In this document: piece by piece, positions 486-33,345 of the stretch | How the letters are laid out: every line of letters begins with the position of its first letter | How positions within the stretch are numbered: the first letter of the stretch is position 1 | Source of the DNA: a virus | Length of the DNA stretch: 33,360 bases | Strand: one strand, 5' to 3' | Virus record (IMG/VR): IMGVR_UViG_3300046804_001259 | Location: 1 to 33,360 of that record | Position numbers and translations under genes: made by a program | Notes under the pieces: generated by a model | The model's database searches: none | What the model saw: the letters and a program-made list of their open reading frames with translations, nothing else | Told to the model about the DNA's origin: nothing

Positions 486-520
486 GTTAGGGAGGTGTGT
501 GTGGGTCTGTTGCGGAGAGG

Positions 521-604
521 GACTCGTTTGCCCGTTGGCAGGGCTAAATGTTTATTTTTAGGCTATATGTCGATTTGTCGAAAGTACACCACTACTGGAT
601 CCTA
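521..604. repeat. Direct repeat copy 2 (~80 bp)
   Basis: Second copy of the repeat at 7-82. It lies between the DnaA-box array (645-880) and the promoter of the 116-409 gene. This copy contains a short inverted repeat, GCCC...GGGC (530-544), that is not preserved in copy 1. The flanking sequence 486-520 is GT- and G-rich. Confidence 0.8.
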
Positions 605-619
605 GTTTCTATTAGCAGC

Positions 620-636
620 GGGGGGTGGGAGGGGGG
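620..636. other. G-rich tract with quadruplex potential
   Basis: GGGGGGTGGGAGGGGGG on the plus strand offers at least four GGG runs with one-base loops, which could form a G-quadruplex. It lies 8 bases left of the first DnaA box. The 410-927 gap has no credible gene. It holds a promoter, the second direct repeat, this tract and the DnaA-box array. Confidence 0.55.
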
Positions 637-644
637 TCAAAAGG

Positions 645-880
645 TTATGCACAAGTTATCCACAGGATATTCACAGCTTGTTCCCGCAATCCACAGGTTA
701 TCCACTACTCCGGCGAAGTTATCCACAGGTTATTCACATGTGGATAAGTTTGGTCTCTTCTGTGGAGAAGCAGTGGATAACTAGACCGAGGGCAGTGGAC
801 AAGCTGTGGATAAGCTGTGAGCAAGTAGCGGCGGGGCAGTGGATAAGCGTGTGAGTAAGCTGTGGATAAGCTGTGGATAA
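645..880. repeat. DnaA-box array, two head-to-head halves, 11-bp phased (candidate origin or DnaA-titration site)
   Basis: Eight exact TTATNCACA boxes lie in 236 bp. Four are forward (starting 645, 656, 719, 730) and four are reverse TGTGGATAA (739, 805, 861, 872). Further near-matches start at 667, 687, 698 (forward) and 761, 772, 794, 816, 838, 850 (reverse). Nearly all start-to-start distances within each half are 11 bp or about a multiple of it, so boxes face the same side of the helix. All left-half boxes point right and all right-half boxes point left. They meet at TTATTCACATGTGGATAA (730-747). TTATNCACA is the high-affinity DnaA binding consensus. Whether this is an origin, a DnaA sink or a regulatory site is inference. 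Confidence 0.85.
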
Positions 881-1370: not shown

Positions 1371-2003
1371 TTAAAGGCTCATTGCTTTGCGTACGTCTTC
1401 AGGCGAGTCGTCAAACGGCCTGTCGATGTGTTTCACGGGGTCTTCGCGCTTGACCTCTACCTCGGTCAGTGCGCCTTTGAAGAAGCGCTTCATCTGCATC
1501 AGCGGGTTCAGCTTCGCGCCGAACTGGTCGATCAGCATCGCGATCTCTTCGAGCGTCCAGACGCTGGCCTCACGGCCTGCAGCGATGTCTTCAGCACGCC
1601 CATGGGCAAGCGCCTCTTCGTTATCGCCGCGAACGATGATTGCGAGCGTCCCGTCCTTCAGTTTCACTTCCCACTGCTCAGGCAGCGATTTCGCACCAGA
1701 GTCAGTGGCAGCTTTGTCGGCTGCGCGGTAGGCGCGTTGCATCCGTTCGCATTCCTGCTGCAGGCCAGCGAGCGTGCCGCTGTTGAGCGCCGTGTTGAAC
1801 TTGTAGCGCTGCGAGTCGAACTTCGCACGCAGCTCTGTGGGTATTAAAAGCCTCAAGCGCCCAATTCCCCATTTACGCTCCATTTCCACCGCAATTAAAT
1901 CCACGGACGAAATTAATGCATTTCCCTGCATATATTCTTTTTCTGTCCACTGCCAGACAGGCGCTTTCCTTTCAATTAATTCATTTTTAAATTTACCAGC
2001 CAT
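1371..2003 (-). CDS. Conserved phage protein of unknown function, replication cluster
   Basis: A 210-residue soluble protein with no motif I can name. The central part (residues ~75-135) is a helical, charged segment followed by KDGTLAIIVRGDNEEA. The C-terminus is acidic with EDPVKH and DDSPEDVRK. It lies between the primase module and the small HTH gene. The first ~50 codons are strikingly AT-rich (repeated TTA-ATT codon pairs) whereas the rest is GC-rich, a sharp internal composition change. The start is preceded by AAGAGGT about 10 bases upstream. Confidence 0.8.
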   Translation of the reverse strand: MAGKFKNELIERKAPVWQWTEKEYMQGNALISSVDLIAVEMERKWGIGRLRLLIPTELRAKFDSQRYKFNTALNSGTLAGLQQECERMQRAYRAADKAATDSGAKSLPEQWEVKLKDGTLAIIVRGDNEEALAHGRAEDIAAGREASVWTLEEIAMLIDQFGAKLNPLMQMKRFFKGALTEVEVKREDPVKHIDRPFDDSPEDVRKAMSL

Positions 2004-2450: not shown

Positions 2451-2637
2451 ACTTCCGTAACCAACTTCCGTATATAAGTTATTGATTCAATTGGATTATT
2501 TTTTGAACTTCCGTAACTTCCGGAAGACTTCCGTAAAACAACTTCCGTAAACATAACAGATTGATTTAATTGAACTATTTTCATTTTACTCATTCTCCAG
2601 TACCGGACATCCGTGAACTTCCGGAAGAACTTCCGTA
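2451..2637. repeat. Iteron-like ACTTCCGTAA repeats with CTTCCGGAAG palindromes
   Basis: ACTTCCGTA(A) occurs at 2451-2460, 2464-2472, 2507-2516, 2527-2536, 2541-2550 and 2629-2637. The perfect 10-bp palindrome CTTCCGGAAG occurs at 2517-2526 and 2618-2627, with a degenerate copy, ACATCCGTGA, at 2607-2616. All intact copies read in one orientation. The array starts in the gap after the primase gene and runs into its last ~15 codons, where it encodes a Gly/Ser-rich tail. Such iterons are typical of initiator-binding origins. The link to origin function is inference. Confidence 0.8.
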
Positions 2638-4710
2638 TTGGTTTTTGACCCTCAGACCTTTCATTTTGGCATCGCTGTCGCACATCTCGTAGACAACGAT
2701 CTGGGCATCTAGCCAGCTATTTAAGACCTTCTCAGCGATTTCTTCATTGATCCCGTACCTGACCATATGCGGTATGGCATATCGTCCCTCACGCCTTGTC
2801 TGGGGCTTAGACGACCACGGTTTGCCATCATCCCAAGCCTGCTGCAGGCCACCGAGCATTGCATTAATTACCGACCTATCAGGCCATTGGTCTGGAGCGA
2901 CAATTTGCATAATTGCAGGCTCTGCAAATAATGATTCTTTATTTTCGTGAATTTCCCCAACGGATATTTTCCTTAAATTAAATCCCATTACCCAACCGTC
3001 TTCTGCAGCTTTAATTTTTTTAGCCGTGATCGTCCCCGACTGAGCGCCCTGTTCTTTTTCGACACCGTAAATGAAGTCCGCAGCGCCCTCAAATACAGTT
3101 GACCCACGCATATTTCCCATACGGCTTGTGTGATGTACGCACAGGACTGTGGTCTTCCATATTTCCCTGATGCCATCGCACGCCTGAACCATCATGCTGG
3201 CTGCAGCCTGATCATTTTCGTCCGTACCAGCCATTGCACGAGAGAGCGTGTCTACGATGACCATAATCGGATTAGCGCCAATTTTGTTAACTATAGTTGA
3301 CACTGTTCGGTGCAATTTGTCGCGGTCGCCAGCATCCATAAAGTTGATGGTCTGGCGGATCAGGTGGAATTGAGACGGTGCATCAACGTGCAGCGCTCTA
3401 CGCCACGCAGCCAGACGGTTCTTCATGTCCGCTGTACCTTCGCTGGAAATCATAATCACAGCGCCTGAGCCGTTGACATCCTTGCCCCACCACTTTGTCT
3501 GGCCTGTAGCTAGGGTCATGCCCATACCTAATGCTATGAAGCTCTTACCTGACGCTGGAGCGCCGTAGATGAATCCGAGACTGTTCTCGATAACCATCTT
3601 ATCGATCAGAAAGACGGGATCAGGTAAGGCCATAATCTGGCCTTCGTTCAATATCTCGTAGATATCATTCTGCGCTGTCCACTCGTCTACGAACTCCCCC
3701 GCAGGGGTCTGAGCGCCATCCCCCCTAGTTCGAGGCATTGCCGCCTCTCTGGCGACCTTGTCATCCCATTGCTTGATTGCATACGACCACTTCTGAGCGA
3801 ACAGGCTGTGACCTCGGCCTTCGCGCTCCAGCAGGATGTGGTTGGGCGTACCAGCCTCTTGGATGCGACTTTTGACATTCCGCTCATACGACCCGAATGC
3901 CTCACGCATCGCGTCCTGTAGACGCTCTGCGCTCGGCAGGATGGGCGAGTCACGGTATAGGCTCAGTACCTTAGCGAACACAACCTTGGTCATGTATTCC
4001 TCACGCCCGTCAATAATCTGCCCGAAGTCAGTCTTGGCGTACTGTGGTGTCTCTGTCTTGACCTGCTGAACTGAACCAGAAGCTGCGCTACCAGCGCCAT
4101 ACTTCTGTGCCAACAGATCGATCTCAGCGGTGAGCCAGCCCTCGGCCTCTGGTATCTCGATGTTCCAAGGTTCACTGCCCTTGAGCCATTTGTACTCGCT
4201 GCCTGAGTCGTGAACCGATGGCGGCATGACTGCGAAACCACCTTGGCCTCGGATGTCGATACCGATGGGTGTTTTGATTGTCGGTGGAGTCCAGCCTTCA
4301 GGCGCTCTGAGCAGATACTGGAATCCACCCCCGCCAGTTTGTTGCGTAGGACACGATAATCTGTTCCCATCGTTGTAGCTGTCGAGCAGATTCATCAGCC
4401 ACTCTTGGGCTTCAGGGTGCTTATGGGAATCAACGTCCAGAATGAATGCACCGCCTGAACACGCGCCAGTGATCAGGCCAATATTGGTCTTGGTCTTGTG
4501 ACTGCCTTCCCAGCCAAACCACTTGTCGAATTGACTGTCTGGTACGGGCGTAGACTCGAATTCTTTCCAAGTGGACAGCAACGGTCGCTTCCAGTTCTTG
4601 GGTGAGTCTAGGGGTGAATGACTGGGTACGGCCTGAAGGCCAAGCTGCCTGTATAACTTCGCATAGTCCGATGCACAGGCGAAATCAGGATCGAATTGAA
4701 TAGGTTTCAT
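2590..4710 (-). CDS. Primase-polymerase / helicase (bifunctional Prim-Pol plus RepA-like ATPase)
   Basis: About 706 residues. The N-terminal part (~15-200) is an archaeo-eukaryotic primase/polymerase domain. It has NIGLITGACSGG, the metal-binding FILDVDSHKH (Asp94/Asp96 counted from the upstream ATG at 4716) and a GGGGFQYLL segment with Gln where the family often has His. The C-terminal part (~365-560) is an AAA_25/RepA-like P-loop ATPase with Walker A GAPASGKS (385-392), Walker B MVIVDTLS (Asp489) and a CVHHTSR sensor-like strand. It would prime and unwind phage DNA. The start at 4710 has better spacing from GGTAGAGA than the ATG at 4716. Iterons overlap its 3' end. Confidence 0.9.
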   Translation of the reverse strand: MKPIQFDPDFACASDYAKLYRQLGLQAVPSHSPLDSPKNWKRPLLSTWKEFESTPVPDSQFDKWFGWEGSHKTKTNIGLITGACSGGAFILDVDSHKHPEAQEWLMNLLDSYNDGNRLSCPTQQTGGGGFQYLLRAPEGWTPPTIKTPIGIDIRGQGGFAVMPPSVHDSGSEYKWLKGSEPWNIEIPEAEGWLTAEIDLLAQKYGAGSAASGSVQQVKTETPQYAKTDFGQIIDGREEYMTKVVFAKVLSLYRDSPILPSAERLQDAMREAFGSYERNVKSRIQEAGTPNHILLEREGRGHSLFAQKWSYAIKQWDDKVAREAAMPRTRGDGAQTPAGEFVDEWTAQNDIYEILNEGQIMALPDPVFLIDKMVIENSLGFIYGAPASGKSFIALGMGMTLATGQTKWWGKDVNGSGAVIMISSEGTADMKNRLAAWRRALHVDAPSQFHLIRQTINFMDAGDRDKLHRTVSTIVNKIGANPIMVIVDTLSRAMAGTDENDQAAASMMVQACDGIREIWKTTVLCVHHTSRMGNMRGSTVFEGAADFIYGVEKEQGAQSGTITAKKIKAAEDGWVMGFNLRKISVGEIHENKESLFAEPAIMQIVAPDQWPDRSVINAMLGGLQQAWDDGKPWSSKPQTRREGRYAIPHMVRYGINEEIAEKVLNSWLDAQIVVYEMCDSDAKMKGLRVKNQYGSSSGSSRMSGTGE

Positions 4711-4731
4711 TAGCATTCTCTACCACCATTG

Positions 4732-8641: not shown

Positions 8642-9454
8642 TTATATGCTGCAATACTCTTCCAAAATTTTTACACGCTGAACTACAGTCTGCATCTGGC
8701 CTTTGTATTCACTATGGCCTTTGATCGTTGCTTTAATTTTCCTTAAAGCACCAGCGCAAGCATTAAATTTGCCCTTGCTTACCAACATGCAGCCATCTTC
8801 GGTAACCATATTTACGATATGCATTACACCGAAAGCACCTTCAAAACTAAAGTGCGCAGTAACTGTAACTTTGACCTCAATTCGCTGACCAACCTCGCCA
8901 AACGTCTTTTCACGATCTGGCTTAGGTAAAAAAGCGCTAGGAACAAACTCTTTAACTTTGGCGCGTAACGCATCAAAAATTGGACTTTCAATTTCGTTAT
9001 TAGCCAACCAAATCAAATACGAAAATCCATCCGCACCTTCGTCACGCAAATCCTTAATAGAATGGTTTTTATATCGACCGAAAGGGATATAGCCATTCTT
9101 AGCATCAGCCAGTTTCTTTTCCTCGTAAGCTTTGCGGCGCTCTTCTGCCTCCAAAGCCTGAGCAGCTTCGCGAGCAGCGCGGTCAGCCAATTCACGTTCG
9201 CTGGCACGCTTGATCTCAAGCATTTCCTGTTCCATCGTCTCTTTAGATGCCTGCAAAGCAAGACCTACTTTGCCAGCGTATTCGCGAGCTTTTTCTAAAG
9301 CGGCATCAGCGTCCTGAGATAGATTGAACAAATGCGCAACGCGCACTTCAACCATTGGAATACCGTCACTGACGTAGTGATGCTGGTAGGACTCACGGAG
9401 CGTGAAAAAGTGGTTGAAAGCGCCGATTCCGATATACAGTCTTGGAACAAACAT
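8642..9454 (-). CDS. Multidomain protein: coiled coil, DUF3820-like motif and C-terminal OB-like domain
   Basis: 270 residues. Residues ~48-118 are a charged coiled coil (EQEMLEIKRASERELADRAA). Residues 122-152, IPFGRYKNHSIKDL...YLIWLANNE, match the 'PFGKYKG...L..YL.WL' motif of DUF3820-like proteins, which occur beside exonuclease domains. Residues ~188-262 alternate beta strands (IEVKVTVTAHFSFEGAFG; KATIKGHSEYKGQMQTVVQR) like an OB fold seen in phage and plasmid nucleic-acid proteins. It is probably a DNA-binding protein. It has its own promoter with a palindromic operator (9489-9520) and a leader with three TACC units before TGGAGA. Confidence 0.78.
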   Translation of the reverse strand: MFVPRLYIGIGAFNHFFTLRESYQHHYVSDGIPMVEVRVAHLFNLSQDADAALEKAREYAGKVGLALQASKETMEQEMLEIKRASERELADRAAREAAQALEAEERRKAYEEKKLADAKNGYIPFGRYKNHSIKDLRDEGADGFSYLIWLANNEIESPIFDALRAKVKEFVPSAFLPKPDREKTFGEVGQRIEVKVTVTAHFSFEGAFGVMHIVNMVTEDGCMLVSKGKFNACAGALRKIKATIKGHSEYKGQMQTVVQRVKILEEYCSI

Positions 9455-9488
9455 GACGATCTCCAGTAGGTAGGTAGGTAACTGGAGT

Positions 9489-9520
9489 ACAGGATAGGCG
9501 ATTTCCGCCTACCCTGTCAA
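9489..9520 (-). promoter_or_regulatory. Promoter with overlapping palindromic operator
   Basis: Leftward TTGACA (9515-9520), an 18-base spacer and TATCCT (9491-9496). A 12-bp inverted repeat, ACAGGATAGGCG (9489-9500) and CGCCTACCCTGT (9506-9517), covers the -10, the spacer and part of the -35. One position would be a G-U pair if transcribed. It serves the 8642-9454 gene and lies directly after the stop of the preceding gene. It looks like a repressor-controlled promoter. Confidence 0.7.
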
Positions 9521-9531
9521 CACTATCGAAA

Positions 9532-9732
9532 TTATTCTTCTACAGGGGTCTCCAGAGCCTTGATCAGGGCATCTGCGTAATCGATTGCCAGATACGCATG
9601 ACGGACTGGATCAAATCCGCTGGCCTTCTGGATTATTCCGCACAATGCAGCCATAGCAATCTCAATTCGATAGAGATTAACAGGCTCTTCTGCCGCCATT
9701 TTATCTAAATCAACAGGATTTTCGTTACTCAT
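9532..9732 (-). CDS. Small uncharacterised helical protein
   Basis: 66 residues starting MSNENPVDLDKMAAEEPVNL, then a predominantly helical IEIAMAALCGIIQKASGFDP and AIDYADALIKALE. No family recognised. The ATG at 9732 overlaps the preceding stop as TGATG and is 8 bases after GGGAG. Located at the end of an operon segment, immediately before the palindromic promoter at 9489-9520. Confidence 0.78.
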   Translation of the reverse strand: MSNENPVDLDKMAAEEPVNLYRIEIAMAALCGIIQKASGFDPVRHAYLAIDYADALIKALETPVEE

Positions 9733-10028
9733 CACAATGCTCCCAATTCAAATTTACCAGACAAAACACGATTAACACCTTCACGACTTCTCGACATCAG
9801 TCTCAACTTACGACTGTCAAGATCCAACATCGAGCAGATCCATTCAAACGAACCGACCTGCATTGTGTACTTAGGGTCTTCTTCGTTAACCCATACATAC
9901 GCACGAGACATCACCAAGGCCGGATCTTCTTTTGTGCCATCTCCATGAGCGCTTCTATATTTTAAGTCACGAAACGCTTGAATGATCACTGCGCACCAGA
10001 GTGCGCGATATGCGCTTGCATCAGTCAT
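9732..10028 (-). CDS. Conserved small phage protein (DUF-type)
   Basis: 98 residues. ALWCAVIIQAFRDLKYRSAH, SRAYVWVNEEDP and GSFEWICSMLDLDSRKLR form a set seen in many uncharacterised phage proteins encoded near DNA metabolism genes (a helix, 'WV..ED...GSFEWICE.L.LD...LR'). The pattern suggests a DNA-binding winged-helix-like or HTH fold, but this is inference. GGAGCGCAATTCAA precedes the start. It overlaps the upstream gene. Confidence 0.8.
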   Translation of the reverse strand: MTDASAYRALWCAVIIQAFRDLKYRSAHGDGTKEDPALVMSRAYVWVNEEDPKYTMQVGSFEWICSMLDLDSRKLRLMSRSREGVNRVLSGKFELGAL

Positions 10029-10272
10029 TTGAATTGCGCTCCTTCATCATTTCATCAGCAAGTTTAAATGCGAAAAACGCAATTAAATTATGATTAGATA
10101 AATTGTCATCTCTGCTGGCAAGATTAGAAATAATTTGACCAGCAAAGTAATCTCTTAACGTCATATCTTTAGCCAATACTGGTTTTGTCGGTTGATAACC
10201 AGTACCAAAATCCTTTAGATCTTTTCCGATCTCTTGAATTTCTTCAACGCTTTTAGGTTCGTACATATTCAC
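10021..10272 (-). CDS. Conserved small phage protein with MTLRDYFAGQ motif
   Basis: About 83 residues. MTLRDYFAGQIISNLAS followed by a helix ending AFKLADEMMKERN is a pattern found in very many phage proteins of unknown function ('RDYFA...A..YADAML.AR'). The start is either GTG at 10272 (GTGA overlap with the resolvase stop, GAGG 6 bases before) or ATG at 10266. GTG is favoured by spacing. Role unknown. Confidence 0.78.
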   Translation of the reverse strand: MNMYEPKSVEEIQEIGKDLKDFGTGYQPTKPVLAKDMTLRDYFAGQIISNLASRDDNLSNHNLIAFFAFKLADEMMKERNSND

Positions 10273-22951: not shown

Positions 22952-25900
22952 TTACCTATTTTGAGTAATGAAGTATCTACTAATGTTAGGCACTCCAATC
23001 CATTTATCTACAGCTTGAGGACTTATTTCTCCATGAAGCAACATTCCTAGCAATGATTTTCCATCGGGTGTAACAGCATTCATTAATGTCGTCAGAGCTA
23101 TTTTATCTGAAGCATATTTTTGACCATACTCTTTTCTGAATTCTGTTCGTGCATTTGTAGCATCATACCCAGTAGTATTGCCGCCTAATCTGTTAAATGC
23201 ATTCAGCTCATATCTTTGCTCATCAATAGCCTTTTGCTTATCCACAAGAAGCGCTGCAGTTAATGTAACTGCGGCATCTCTTGTCATTTGACCATTCGGC
23301 AAAGCGTTAAGAGCTGTTTCTAGAGCTTGAACAGAAGACGATCCAGCGGCAAGAGCGCTACCTTTAACGAACTTATCTCTAATGGCAGTTGCTGTTAGAT
23401 CTTTTTCTAAATCCGCTGCAGCCTCTGGATGTCCAATGGCATTCATAAATGCATTGTAGTTTAATAAAGCGCCTTTAAAGAAATCGCTAAAAGTATTTCC
23501 AGAAAGAACGCTATCTTTACCCAATGAACTTACGGCATTAGCCATAGTTGCGATTTGAGGCTCTTGATTGAACGCAGCAGAAGCTCCAGCATCTAACTGT
23601 TTCTTTATCTCTGCAGTCCTTTCTGCAGCTCCTGTTCTTGAGATTTCATTTGAATTTGCTATCAAGCTGCTCTTGATATTATTAAATGCATCATCAGAAG
23701 GCGCGGCTCCAGTTTGTACAACAGCAGGAATTGATGTAGAAACATCTTTGCTTATTGGAACTGTAGAGACAGGAACTTCTCCAATATTTCTTGCGCCAAG
23801 AGCTATTTCAGTTCCAAATAGTGGTGGTCTGCTGCTTATAGGGAGAGCATTCCATTGATAAGCAGGCATAGGTGGGCCGTTTGAAGGAATTACATATTCT
23901 ATTCCTCCAACAGTAAATTTATTTTGACCAATAGATTTTGCTGCATCCATTGCATTTTTAATGTTATATCCTCGCGCGGTTGCCACATCAACCGCAGTTG
24001 ATGCCTGTTTAGCAGCTTTATCAATCTCAAACTGACGTTGAGCCTGATAACCCTTCAGACCTTGGCCTAAACCAGAAGAAAGAGCAACGCCCAAGCTTCT
24101 GGTTGGGGTAACGCCCATTGCTGCAATACCTTGAAGCAATGGAATAACGTACTTTTCGTTTGTATACCAATGAGCTGGCTTGCCATCGCTTGTAGTCACT
24201 GCTTTAGCTTCTGGTTTAGTAGCCCCAGCAAGACCCGTGGCAGGAGCCTCCTCGGCCTTAGCAGGAGCAGGTGCTGCAGCGACAGGAGCGACATTAGGAG
24301 CGTCTTTAGGACTCAATCCACCAGCGCCAGTAGCGCCTACGGCAGTTGTTGTTGGCATCTGAGAAACATCACCAGTTGCCTCTGCAATAGGAGCGCCTTC
24401 AGAAACAGAAGGAGCATCTGCGAAACGCAATTTGTCCATTAATGCTTGTTCGTTTGCAGCGGAAACCTTGTTCTCTGATCCGCCAGCAAGGCCGCTTGAT
24501 CCAGCGCCTCCAGAAACGTAATTACGCTGACCGCCTTCGCCAAGCGTGAATTTACGGCCTTTTTCGTCACCAAAAGTCAGACCTTTATTTATATCTTCTT
24601 GTTCAACAGTCAGCGGCGGATGATAAATTGGCTGTCCTTCAGATCCAATGGTGTATTCACCTTCTGGAGTTCCAAACTTTAACTGTCTGTTAATGTCTTC
24701 ATCCCGCTGCTTGATTGCCTGACGATTTTGTTCTTGATCTGCTGTGTATTGATCAGCAGTTTTATTGCCAAGCCAGAAATCTTTGTTGAATCTTGGTTGG
24801 CTTAAAAACTCATCGCTATCATCAGCTCCACCCCAAGCATATCCCTTTCGATCAGCTAAACCTCCTGCATGCTTTCCATTAAGCATAGCTCCAAGACCAA
24901 ATCCCGCCAATCCAGAAGAAAGCATATTCATCCACGGACTAGATCCAGATTTAGATGAAGCTGCAGCATCTGCGCTGGCATCTTTGCCGCCAGCGTCAGG
25001 AGTTTTTGGTTTATCGGAAAATCCAGACTTTATATCCATGCCAGTCTGAGCTAATGATGCAACATCAGCCAATTGACCTAATCCAGATTGTTGTTCAGGC
25101 ATCGGCGATGAAGCAGTCAATAATTGACGCTGCTGACCATCTCCAGTAGGAATACTTAAACCGCCACCATATGGCATGCCGCCAGTATCAAAATGCCCAC
25201 GATGCTCTGCAGCTTCTGTGGCCTTATCGTAGTTAACAGTTTTATATCCGCCAGCAAGCCCAACAGCATGAGGATGATGCTTTTCGACTTCCTGAGCGAT
25301 TAGCCCCATACGGAAATTAGGTTCACCTTTATATCGATATTTATAAACAGTTTGACCATCAAAAGTTTTACCAACGGGCTGAATGTCTGTTTTTAAGCGC
25401 TTATCAGAACCAGCCATAGCAGCAATGGAAGTGCCGATTTGTAGAAGCTGACCAAATTGATCCATACTAGGATCTTTAGCAGATCCAGTATCTGGTTTCA
25501 TCAACTCTCTAGGGGCTGTCTGTTCTTGAGGAATATCAAGCTTATTCTGATCTCCTTCATTAGGAGCCTTCGCAGCGCTCGCAAATGGCATACTGGATGT
25601 AGAAGAATTTTGTTGGTCATTGGGATTGCCGCCCATTGCATATCCAGCAAGCCCGCCGCTTGCAAAGCTTTCTTCTCCAAGTGGACTCCCTGATGCAGAA
25701 TCAAAGCTATCAATCCAATCATTAAATTTATTTGCAGCAGATGTAACGCCCTTTTCTCCTAATTTATATGCGCCAGCACCAATTGGAGCAAGAACGCCAA
25801 TAGCTTGCGCAGTGTTAGCGGCCTGTTCTAATCCAGACTCTGGAGTTGGAACATCCATATCTGGAGTAACCAAACCCGCTACAGGCAGGCTTGCTTCTGG

Positions 25901-27169
25901 AACATAACCTTTACCACCTAACGGAGAGCCAGAAACATTCATTCCAGATTCAGAGAATGGAGCATACATTTTTGCTTGAGCTTCTAAAATAGCTGCAAAA
26001 TCCGCAGGAGATAAACCTTGTAGCGCGGGAGAGCCCCCATCGGCGTATCCTTCTCCAATATGTTCAGGAGCAACGTGCCCACCCATGCTTTCTGCAGCAA
26101 GGCCGCCTGAAGCGAAATGACCTTTATGTTCTGCCGTCTTAGTAGCCTTGTCGTAATCAACTGTCTTATAACCTGCGGCAAGACCTACAGCATGAGGATG
26201 ATGCTTTTCTACATCTTGTGCTAAAAGGCCAATCTGATGCTTTGGATCGCCTTTGTAACGATACTTATAGATAGGCTGACCATCGAAAGTTTTACCTACA
26301 ACGTGAATATCTTCTTTTAAGCGCTCATCGGAGAAAAAGCCCCCCGGAACATTAGATGTTGTAGTAGACCCAGAAAGCGCACCAGTACCTTCGGCAATAT
26401 TTGCCAAAAACTGAGCAACTTGAAAAGGATATGACTGCTGTTGTTGAAATTGATTGTATAAGGCTGTCTTCCCAGCTTGTTCTGTCTGTTGCTGTACTTG
26501 ACCAGCGCCAAGCTGCGCTTGAGCGCCTTGCAATGCCGCTTGTTGACCAGAAAGACCAAGATTTGCTAATTGTTGGGCTATAGCTGCTTGGTTCTGCCTA
26601 TTAGCAACATCTGACTGATATCTTAAACCCTGCTGCTGTTGAGCAGTTTGTAATGCTTGGTTATATCCCTGACTAGCTATATCGGAAAAAATCTTTCCGC
26701 TTGCCATCTGTTGTTGTTGAGCCAAATTAGCTGCAGCGATACCTCCTCTGTCTCCGCCAAAAGCTCCAGAGCGAATGGCATTTCCAGTCTGACCAGCCAT
26801 TGCCTGTTGGTTTTGTTGGTTTAATAGAGCTGCAGTACTGCCCAATACATTCTGCATGTATGGATTCATGTACTGATTAATTTCGCTTGCGCCAAGCTGG
26901 CTTGGATCTACATTACGGTTAGCACCCTGTGTAATTCCGTATGCATCGGAAATCGCGCCCTGAGCTTGACCAGAAGCGTCCATAGTCTGCTGAATTCCAG
27001 CTTTTTGAGCGTCTGTTAATCCAGCTACGAATGCATTAGGATCACTAGAATATTCTTGGAATCCTCTGTTACTGGCTTTTTCAGCTCTTGCATTTACAGC
27101 GTTATACCTAGCCAGTACCTCTGGTGGTATTTGAATTGTTTGACTGGATTGACTTGTCTTACCGCCCAT
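22952..27169 (-). CDS. Large virion protein with two internal peptidase S74-like domains
   Basis: 1405 residues. The N-terminal ~270 residues are Gln/Ala-rich and helical. Two copies of the S74 intramolecular-chaperone domain follow, at ~280-350 (SDERLKEDI, Ser280/Lys285) and ~588-660 (SDKRLKTDI, Ser588/Lys593). Both contain GKTFDGQ, YKYRYKG, LIAQ/LLAQ and HHPHAVGLA. Between and after them are Gly-rich 'F-A-S-G-G-L-A...M-G-G' linkers (352-364, 502-514). S74 domains normally sit at the C-terminus of fibres and self-cleave. Having two, internally, is unusual. The rest (~700-1405) is Gln/Ala/Ser-rich with an amphipathic C-terminal half. Confidence 0.78.
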   Translation of the reverse strand: MGGKTSQSSQTIQIPPEVLARYNAVNARAEKASNRGFQEYSSDPNAFVAGLTDAQKAGIQQTMDASGQAQGAISDAYGITQGANRNVDPSQLGASEINQYMNPYMQNVLGSTAALLNQQNQQAMAGQTGNAIRSGAFGGDRGGIAAANLAQQQQMASGKIFSDIASQGYNQALQTAQQQQGLRYQSDVANRQNQAAIAQQLANLGLSGQQAALQGAQAQLGAGQVQQQTEQAGKTALYNQFQQQQSYPFQVAQFLANIAEGTGALSGSTTTSNVPGGFFSDERLKEDIHVVGKTFDGQPIYKYRYKGDPKHQIGLLAQDVEKHHPHAVGLAAGYKTVDYDKATKTAEHKGHFASGGLAAESMGGHVAPEHIGEGYADGGSPALQGLSPADFAAILEAQAKMYAPFSESGMNVSGSPLGGKGYVPEASLPVAGLVTPDMDVPTPESGLEQAANTAQAIGVLAPIGAGAYKLGEKGVTSAANKFNDWIDSFDSASGSPLGEESFASGGLAGYAMGGNPNDQQNSSTSSMPFASAAKAPNEGDQNKLDIPQEQTAPRELMKPDTGSAKDPSMDQFGQLLQIGTSIAAMAGSDKRLKTDIQPVGKTFDGQTVYKYRYKGEPNFRMGLIAQEVEKHHPHAVGLAGGYKTVNYDKATEAAEHRGHFDTGGMPYGGGLSIPTGDGQQRQLLTASSPMPEQQSGLGQLADVASLAQTGMDIKSGFSDKPKTPDAGGKDASADAAASSKSGSSPWMNMLSSGLAGFGLGAMLNGKHAGGLADRKGYAWGGADDSDEFLSQPRFNKDFWLGNKTADQYTADQEQNRQAIKQRDEDINRQLKFGTPEGEYTIGSEGQPIYHPPLTVEQEDINKGLTFGDEKGRKFTLGEGGQRNYVSGGAGSSGLAGGSENKVSAANEQALMDKLRFADAPSVSEGAPIAEATGDVSQMPTTTAVGATGAGGLSPKDAPNVAPVAAAPAPAKAEEAPATGLAGATKPEAKAVTTSDGKPAHWYTNEKYVIPLLQGIAAMGVTPTRSLGVALSSGLGQGLKGYQAQRQFEIDKAAKQASTAVDVATARGYNIKNAMDAAKSIGQNKFTVGGIEYVIPSNGPPMPAYQWNALPISSRPPLFGTEIALGARNIGEVPVSTVPISKDVSTSIPAVVQTGAAPSDDAFNNIKSSLIANSNEISRTGAAERTAEIKKQLDAGASAAFNQEPQIATMANAVSSLGKDSVLSGNTFSDFFKGALLNYNAFMNAIGHPEAAADLEKDLTATAIRDKFVKGSALAAGSSSVQALETALNALPNGQMTRDAAVTLTAALLVDKQKAIDEQRYELNAFNRLGGNTTGYDATNARTEFRKEYGQKYASDKIALTTLMNAVTPDGKSLLGMLLHGEISPQAVDKWIGVPNISRYFITQNR

Positions 27170-33099: not shown

Positions 33100-33345
33100 T
33101 CAACAGTTCCAAGCTCGTAAACTCTTGTTTATTCTACTATTTGGATCGCGTGCTGTCTTGGCCCCAGTGAGCTTTTTTTTCATTCCTTCCATTCTGGCGC
33201 AAAAGGAATCTCGCCGAGCGCCACCTTCAGGCTGAGGCGCTTTTAGGTTCATCCCCTGAGCCTTAGCTGACGCTCGGCCCTTGGCGTTCAGGCCGCCGCT
33301 TGGATTTTTGCCTTCTTTACGTTGCCATGCTGGTGATTTAGCCAT
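33100..33345 (-). CDS. DUF6321-like conserved phage protein
   Basis: 81 residues. MAKSPAWQRKEGKNPSGGLN AKGRASAKAQG (read as one), FCARMEGMKKKLTG and the C-terminal RINKSLRAWNC match a very conserved small phage protein (DUF6321-type; 'KSPAWQRKEGKNPxGGLNxKGRxS') encoded near terminase and lysis genes. Very basic and Gly-rich; role unknown, perhaps packaging-related. AAGAGA lies ahead of the start near the window edge. Confidence 0.88.
   Translation of the reverse strand: MAKSPAWQRKEGKNPSGGLNAKGRASAKAQGMNLKAPQPEGGARRDSFCARMEGMKKKLTGAKTARDPNSRINKSLRAWNC

Follow-up and report, generated by a model that had tools for sequence, protein, structure and literature searches.

The window, a 33,360-base virus record, carries a dense array of DnaA boxes in two head-to-head halves, next to a G/C tract (Table 1). 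The array is real. Judged by comparison with other phages, it fits best a genome-terminus module bound by the host DnaA, which may act as a roadblock or an anchor during DNA entry or concatemer processing. We give about an even chance that the array is the DnaA version of such a packaging-site module, in the order early side - array - tract - cut - terminase genes; a DnaA-dependent origin or a DnaA sink appears less likely.

Table 1. Coordinates of the DnaA-box array and of the features around it in the window.
Feature	Position	Strand	Remarks
Exact TTATNCACA boxes	645, 656, 719, 730; 739, 805, 861, 872	+ (first four); - (last four)	
One-mismatch DnaA boxes	667, 698; 761, 772, 838, 850	+ (first two); - (last four)	
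Two-mismatch DnaA boxes	687; 794, 816	+ (first); - (last two)	
Array, left half	645-738	+	Boxes 645, 656, 667, 687, 698, 719, 730, pointing right
Array, right half	739-880	-	Boxes 739, 761, 772, 794, 805, 816, 838, 850, 861, 872, pointing left
G/C tract adjoining the array	620-636		GGGGGGTGGGAGGGGGG on the + strand, TTGACCCCCCTCCCACCCCCC on the gene strand
CAAATCGACATA	566-577	-	Same distance past the tract in L051 and L233
Segment past the tract	520-611		Second copy at 6-89, across the small ORF 116-409
PrimPol and RecA-type AAA helicase	2590-4716	-	Replication gene, in the early block facing the array
210-aa early protein, function not assigned	1371-2003	-	Homologues adjoin arrays in L051, L233, L064, L254, L255, L256

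An earlier note on this DNA had described eight exact and about nine near boxes, and the motif count over the 236 bp at 645-880 agrees, with eight exact TTATNCACA boxes, six with one mismatch and three with two. The two halves, each of a single orientation, do converge as proposed: every plus-strand box lies to the left of every minus-strand box, and the halves meet at 730-747 (TTATTCACATGTGGATAA). The comparison with simulated sequence that had been suggested as a check places the cluster far beyond chance, as the maximum per 236 bp was two exact boxes in 200 order-1 Markov runs and one in 100 order-3 runs. Over the whole window, boxes with at most one mismatch number 42 against 34 expected, only mildly high, so the signal is the cluster. 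The claimed steps of about 11 bp hold for the right half, which fits a grid of 11.0 bp (R 0.97; none of 20,000 random placements was equally tight), whereas the left half is better described by a 10.5-bp grid (R 0.97) than by 11 bp (R 0.74, p 0.10). The region thus combines several consensus boxes, helical spacing and a density beyond chance, as expected of a DnaA-box cluster.

With its tract, the array is a phased repeat array beside a G/C tract. To its right runs a leftward early block of small ORFs, the 210-aa protein and the PrimPol-helicase; the late genes (virion protein, endolysin) are likewise leftward and come from the opposite contig end. No terminase was found among the window proteins scanned, and the gene likely lies in the gap between the contig ends, beyond the tract as seen from the array, which is the side it occupies in L051 and L233, two loci with the same tract. 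The copy of CAAATCGACATA past the tract, at the same distance as in these loci, possibly marks the neighbourhood of the terminase cut. The segment past the tract is directly duplicated (65 nt at 89% and 19 nt at 95% identity), and the left contig end coincides with the duplicate copy. In relatives of the last gene (33100-33345), TerL lies about 8 kb off on the same strand; none of the many relatives reached through this gene has a DnaA array. Elsewhere in the window, a 1405-aa ORF has a 231-nt internal repeat (73%; 25178-25408 and 26102-26332) and an S74 endosialidase-chaperone domain, matched in two stretches.

Similar arrays recur among viral contigs. Pairs of exact boxes 11 bp apart occur in at least 120 viral contigs, compared with a total of 26 for the reversed motif, and about a dozen contigs, among the matches listed, have 9-15 boxes per 240 bp; many of the relatives are metagenomic fragments, and the counts are drawn from among the matches listed. 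The statement that phages rarely carry so many boxes should therefore be softened: such arrays are uncommon but recurrent. In many box-cluster loci, members of a common TerL, TerS-like and portal gene family lie near the array. The association also appears where the motif played no part in the search, as 8 of 79 loci found through TerL had at least three exact boxes in 240 bp (0 of 79 for the reversed motif), and so did 6 of 56 loci found through the 210-aa protein, where 11 more had two exact boxes. A pattern for the tract only (TTGACCCCC, 0-2 bases, TCCCACCCCC) gave two matches in the whole collection, L051 and L233, which had already been found before the tract search, the former by the motif and the latter by the protein. 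Both have a DnaA array adjoining the tract, CAAATCGACATA past it and homologues of the 210-aa protein, and L051 goes on into a TerS-like gene (weakly matched), TerL and portal.

When same-strand steps were pooled over all DnaA arrays, they peaked at 11, 12, 22 and 21 bp, which extends the spacing noted in the window to other phages. The head-to-head halves did not hold up as a conserved feature, most related arrays being unidirectional or mixed. Because the same consensus and helical spacing recur in several unrelated phages, the reading of the boxes as selected DnaA boxes is supported. Contamination by a host oriC is ruled out, since the examined neighbours of dense arrays are phage replication and packaging genes. 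We found no close relatives of the window PrimPol in viral contigs. No array was present in isolates with distant PrimPol homologues (RHph_N65, CRP-406, XX1924, EBPR siphovirus 5), nor a DnaA array in bacterial genomes with homologues of the 210-aa protein (Bradyrhizobium and others).

Box clusters were also seen in several other settings. Two lie in GC-rich (65%) contigs with PrimPol-helicase homologues (L037:104-351, L088:3205-3440), the one in L037 adjoining a small terminase gene. In Lactococcus phage WRP3, clusters occupy gene-poor stretches (L297:2509-2591, L297:11075-11485) that are not known as ends. Microviruses, small ssDNA phages (e.g., MZ089785, PQ006258), gave matches to the DnaA-box array, one of them under the replication initiator gene. 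A further locus with a homologue of the 210-aa protein has CTGGAGCA repeats in steps of about 10 bp around a C10/G9 inverted tract (L204:6835-6961).

Wherever termini are known or visible, the array lies in the genome end or within about 100 bp of it. The terminal repeat of Shigella phage A7 was sequenced by its authors, at 1-177 and 39,882-40,058 (PMC8427288), and we find four exact and five near boxes, from 22 to 147, within these 177 bp. The 195-bp terminal repeat of phiEap-1 contains five exact boxes and the 292-bp repeat of ZK1 six. In P483 and nasanit the array lies between TerL and the early genes. Arthrobacter phage Tiff81 has it in its final 100 bp, with a G tract after it, and in Jollison it lies 58-104 bp outside the 12,545-bp terminal repeat. 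Two near-full-length marine podovirus contigs, G001 (36,338 bases) and G014 (35,752 bases), carry the boxes and the tract within exact end repeats, 221 and 146 bp long, with right edges falling at one shared conserved site about 24 bp past the tract. In these phages the early side is followed by the array, the G/C tract and the cut, and then by the terminase side. The window agrees for array and tract, and neither cut nor terminase is seen in it; from the comparison, its genome end would be expected at the array. Several observations weigh against a terminus module. The window contig has no end repeat, nor has any of the eight other long marine relatives read likewise, and some arrays, such as those of WRP3, are not known at ends.

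The T7-like phages offer the closest known parallel. As in the window, phased short repeats adjoin a G/C tract in T7, the Berlinvirus phages A7 and P483 and the Eapunavirus phiEap-1, where terminase lies on one side and the early genes on the other. These repeats are DnaA boxes in A7, P483 and phiEap-1, and the terminal repeat of T7 itself has no DnaA box. Unlike A7, P483 and phiEap-1, the window, with its PrimPol-helicase, is not a T7-like phage, and it is known from a contig without an end repeat. A second parallel is the injection-stop signal of T5, a terminal-repeat element reported to be rich in repeats and DnaA boxes and to hold palindromes (PMC13250531). It is annotated at 9140-10149, on the inner side of a 10-kb repeat, and differs from the window array in having few boxes, one exact and four near, a count that also speaks against the terminus module. 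Besides this T5 description, we found no paper, in our incomplete coverage of the open-access literature, that reports arrays of DnaA boxes or of sigma-54 sites within the terminal repeats of phages.

The marine podoviruses show the module in many copies. A GGGGGAGGGG-type tract is present in 58 loci of the marine TerL family and is followed in all 58 by a TerS-like gene, at a median of about 230 bp; the array precedes the tract, and the early genes lead off on the opposite side. Between near relatives, sequence identity often starts at the tract and is patchy before it. Three pairs of phages with nearly identical TerS (L136/L132, 97.7%; L151/L152, 98.6%; L067/L131, 98.4%) have differing arrays, with several DnaA boxes in one phage of each pair and none or one in the other. 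The commonest alternative motif is a perfect sigma-54 site, TGGCAYN5TTGCW, with 52 exact sites in 14 regions of at most 450 bp; across the other 475 kb of these loci the background is 0.0009 per 450 bp. Controls with a spacer of 4 or 6 gave no exact site, nor did the reversed motif. A GTTG-type motif, which overlaps part of the sigma-54 site, had served to label these 14 regions; the label is therefore partly circular, but not the spacer control or the background rate. Some repeats mix both motifs, as in L053 (six DnaA, five sigma-54). In the window, sigma-54 sites are at chance level (no exact site, three with one mismatch).

Within the 450 bp that precede the G tract, L144, L178 and L199 carry perfect sigma-54 (-24/-12) sites in arrays, with as many as nine in about 220 bp; L053, L151, L174 and L135 have such arrays too. 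In these marine podoviruses the arrays lie inside the putative terminal repeat or next to it. A third array type, made of GGTAACA/TGTTACC repeats, precedes the G tract in L166, L176 and L202. We also looked for one early gene that could read the array class; no family stood out, and the only DnaA-exclusive one was present in four loci, too few for a judgement.

These pairs bear on the reading in which the phage's own TerS recognizes the array as its packaging site. The marine-family array lies about 230 bp or more before TerS, and phased units would suit a TerS ring. In the marine podoviruses, however, the lineage to which this result applies rather than the window, the array motif does not follow the TerS sequence: TerS proteins 97-99% identical go with DnaA boxes or with sigma-54 sites, from which it follows that the terminase does not read the motif. 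The 97.7-98.6% identity of the TerS pairs rules out a TerS-read array for that lineage. The same TTATNCACA also occurs in phages with different terminase families, and for the array in general we hold recognition by TerS to be very improbable.

The earlier note had offered an origin, a datA-like sink or a DnaA switch as possible functions; the comparison points elsewhere, through the arrays at genome ends, the sigma-54 swap and the lack of an adjacent AT-rich element. At an origin, two converging DnaA oligomers would open the DNA and load helicase, perhaps copying the terminal repeat. We consider this unlikely, although it retains some weight. As in a bacterial oriC, consensus boxes are dense, about 11 bp apart (2 bp between boxes) and arranged in opposed halves, the array faces the early block with the PrimPol-helicase, and its marine counterparts have early genes on one side and late genes on the other, reading divergently. 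The window differs from oriC in its phage packaging context and in having no AT-rich unwinding element next to the array (the lowest GC of any 60-bp stretch there is 0.35, at 551, and the 5% quantile is 0.28). GC skew, which had been proposed as a check, tracks gene direction and gives no origin signal. In addition, the phage encodes its own helicase, opposed halves are not a constant of such arrays, sigma-54 sites can take the place of the motif, and arrays are also found in T7-like phages, which start replication without DnaA.

A sink would lower free DnaA and stop host initiation, as datA does. A genome with many consensus boxes of high affinity, copied further as the phage replicates, would suit this role, yet one entering genome brings few boxes relative to cellular DnaA, and neither the position at genome ends nor the exchange with sigma-54 sites is needed for it. 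Like the window array, datA and DARS are clusters of DnaA boxes, and they lie outside origins; boxes I and II of DARS are in opposing orientation (PMC8682772), resembling the window at 730-747. The window array differs in its phage context, in being far denser and in having no exact IHF site; the one-mismatch IHF hits overlap the boxes themselves. An IHF-assisted datA was rejected on the missing IHF site, and a sink of any kind seems to us rather improbable. There is a slightly slimmer chance that the array is a DnaA-controlled promoter or early/late switch. It lies between the early and late sides, and in the marine lineage a TTGAC-like sequence often comes after the tract, but the promoter scan of the window was near chance (3 sites against 1.4 expected), and in the terminal repeats of T7-like phages the arrays are away from the gene starts where regulation usually takes place.

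We return to the terminus module bound by the host DnaA. Arrays in or beside ends, together with the sigma-54 swap, suggest a job at genome ends rather than a simple replication origin. DnaA is the probable reader in view of its consensus recurring in unrelated phages, and we infer that it binds the array. The end position and the exchange with sigma-54 sites indicate a local job that several duplex-binding host proteins could do. DnaA and sigma-54 holoenzyme both sit on duplex DNA in inactive complexes, and this common trait is why we favour a roadblock over initiation. DnaA oligomerises on boxes 2 bp apart in oriC. When bound to a box it can act as a block to RNA polymerase, and the RNA polymerase of T7 pauses at the junction of the concatemer. 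On the array, host DnaA would form an oligomer and thereby a stable nucleoprotein block, which might serve locally as a roadblock or anchor in either of two ways. It could halt transcription or replication at the concatemer junction, allowing terminase to act and the terminal repeat to be copied; or, as has been suggested for the injection-stop signal of T5, it could grip or pause the genome end while the DNA enters. A broader proposal, which we put forward tentatively and at somewhat less than even confidence, is that phage ends carry exchangeable arrays of host-protein sites (DnaA, sigma-54 -24/-12, perhaps others), the phage borrowing whichever bound protein suits it as a removable clamp, one that paces entry or shows terminase where the concatemer junction lies.

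It has long been asked how T7-like phages mark their terminal repeats and copy them, and what purpose the repeat arrays in them serve. With arrays that are exact sites for a named host protein in several lineages, both become testable, in E. coli with a Berlinvirus. The swap of DnaA and sigma-54 sites in near-identical phages would make the host protein a tool of the phage rather than a sign of replication control.
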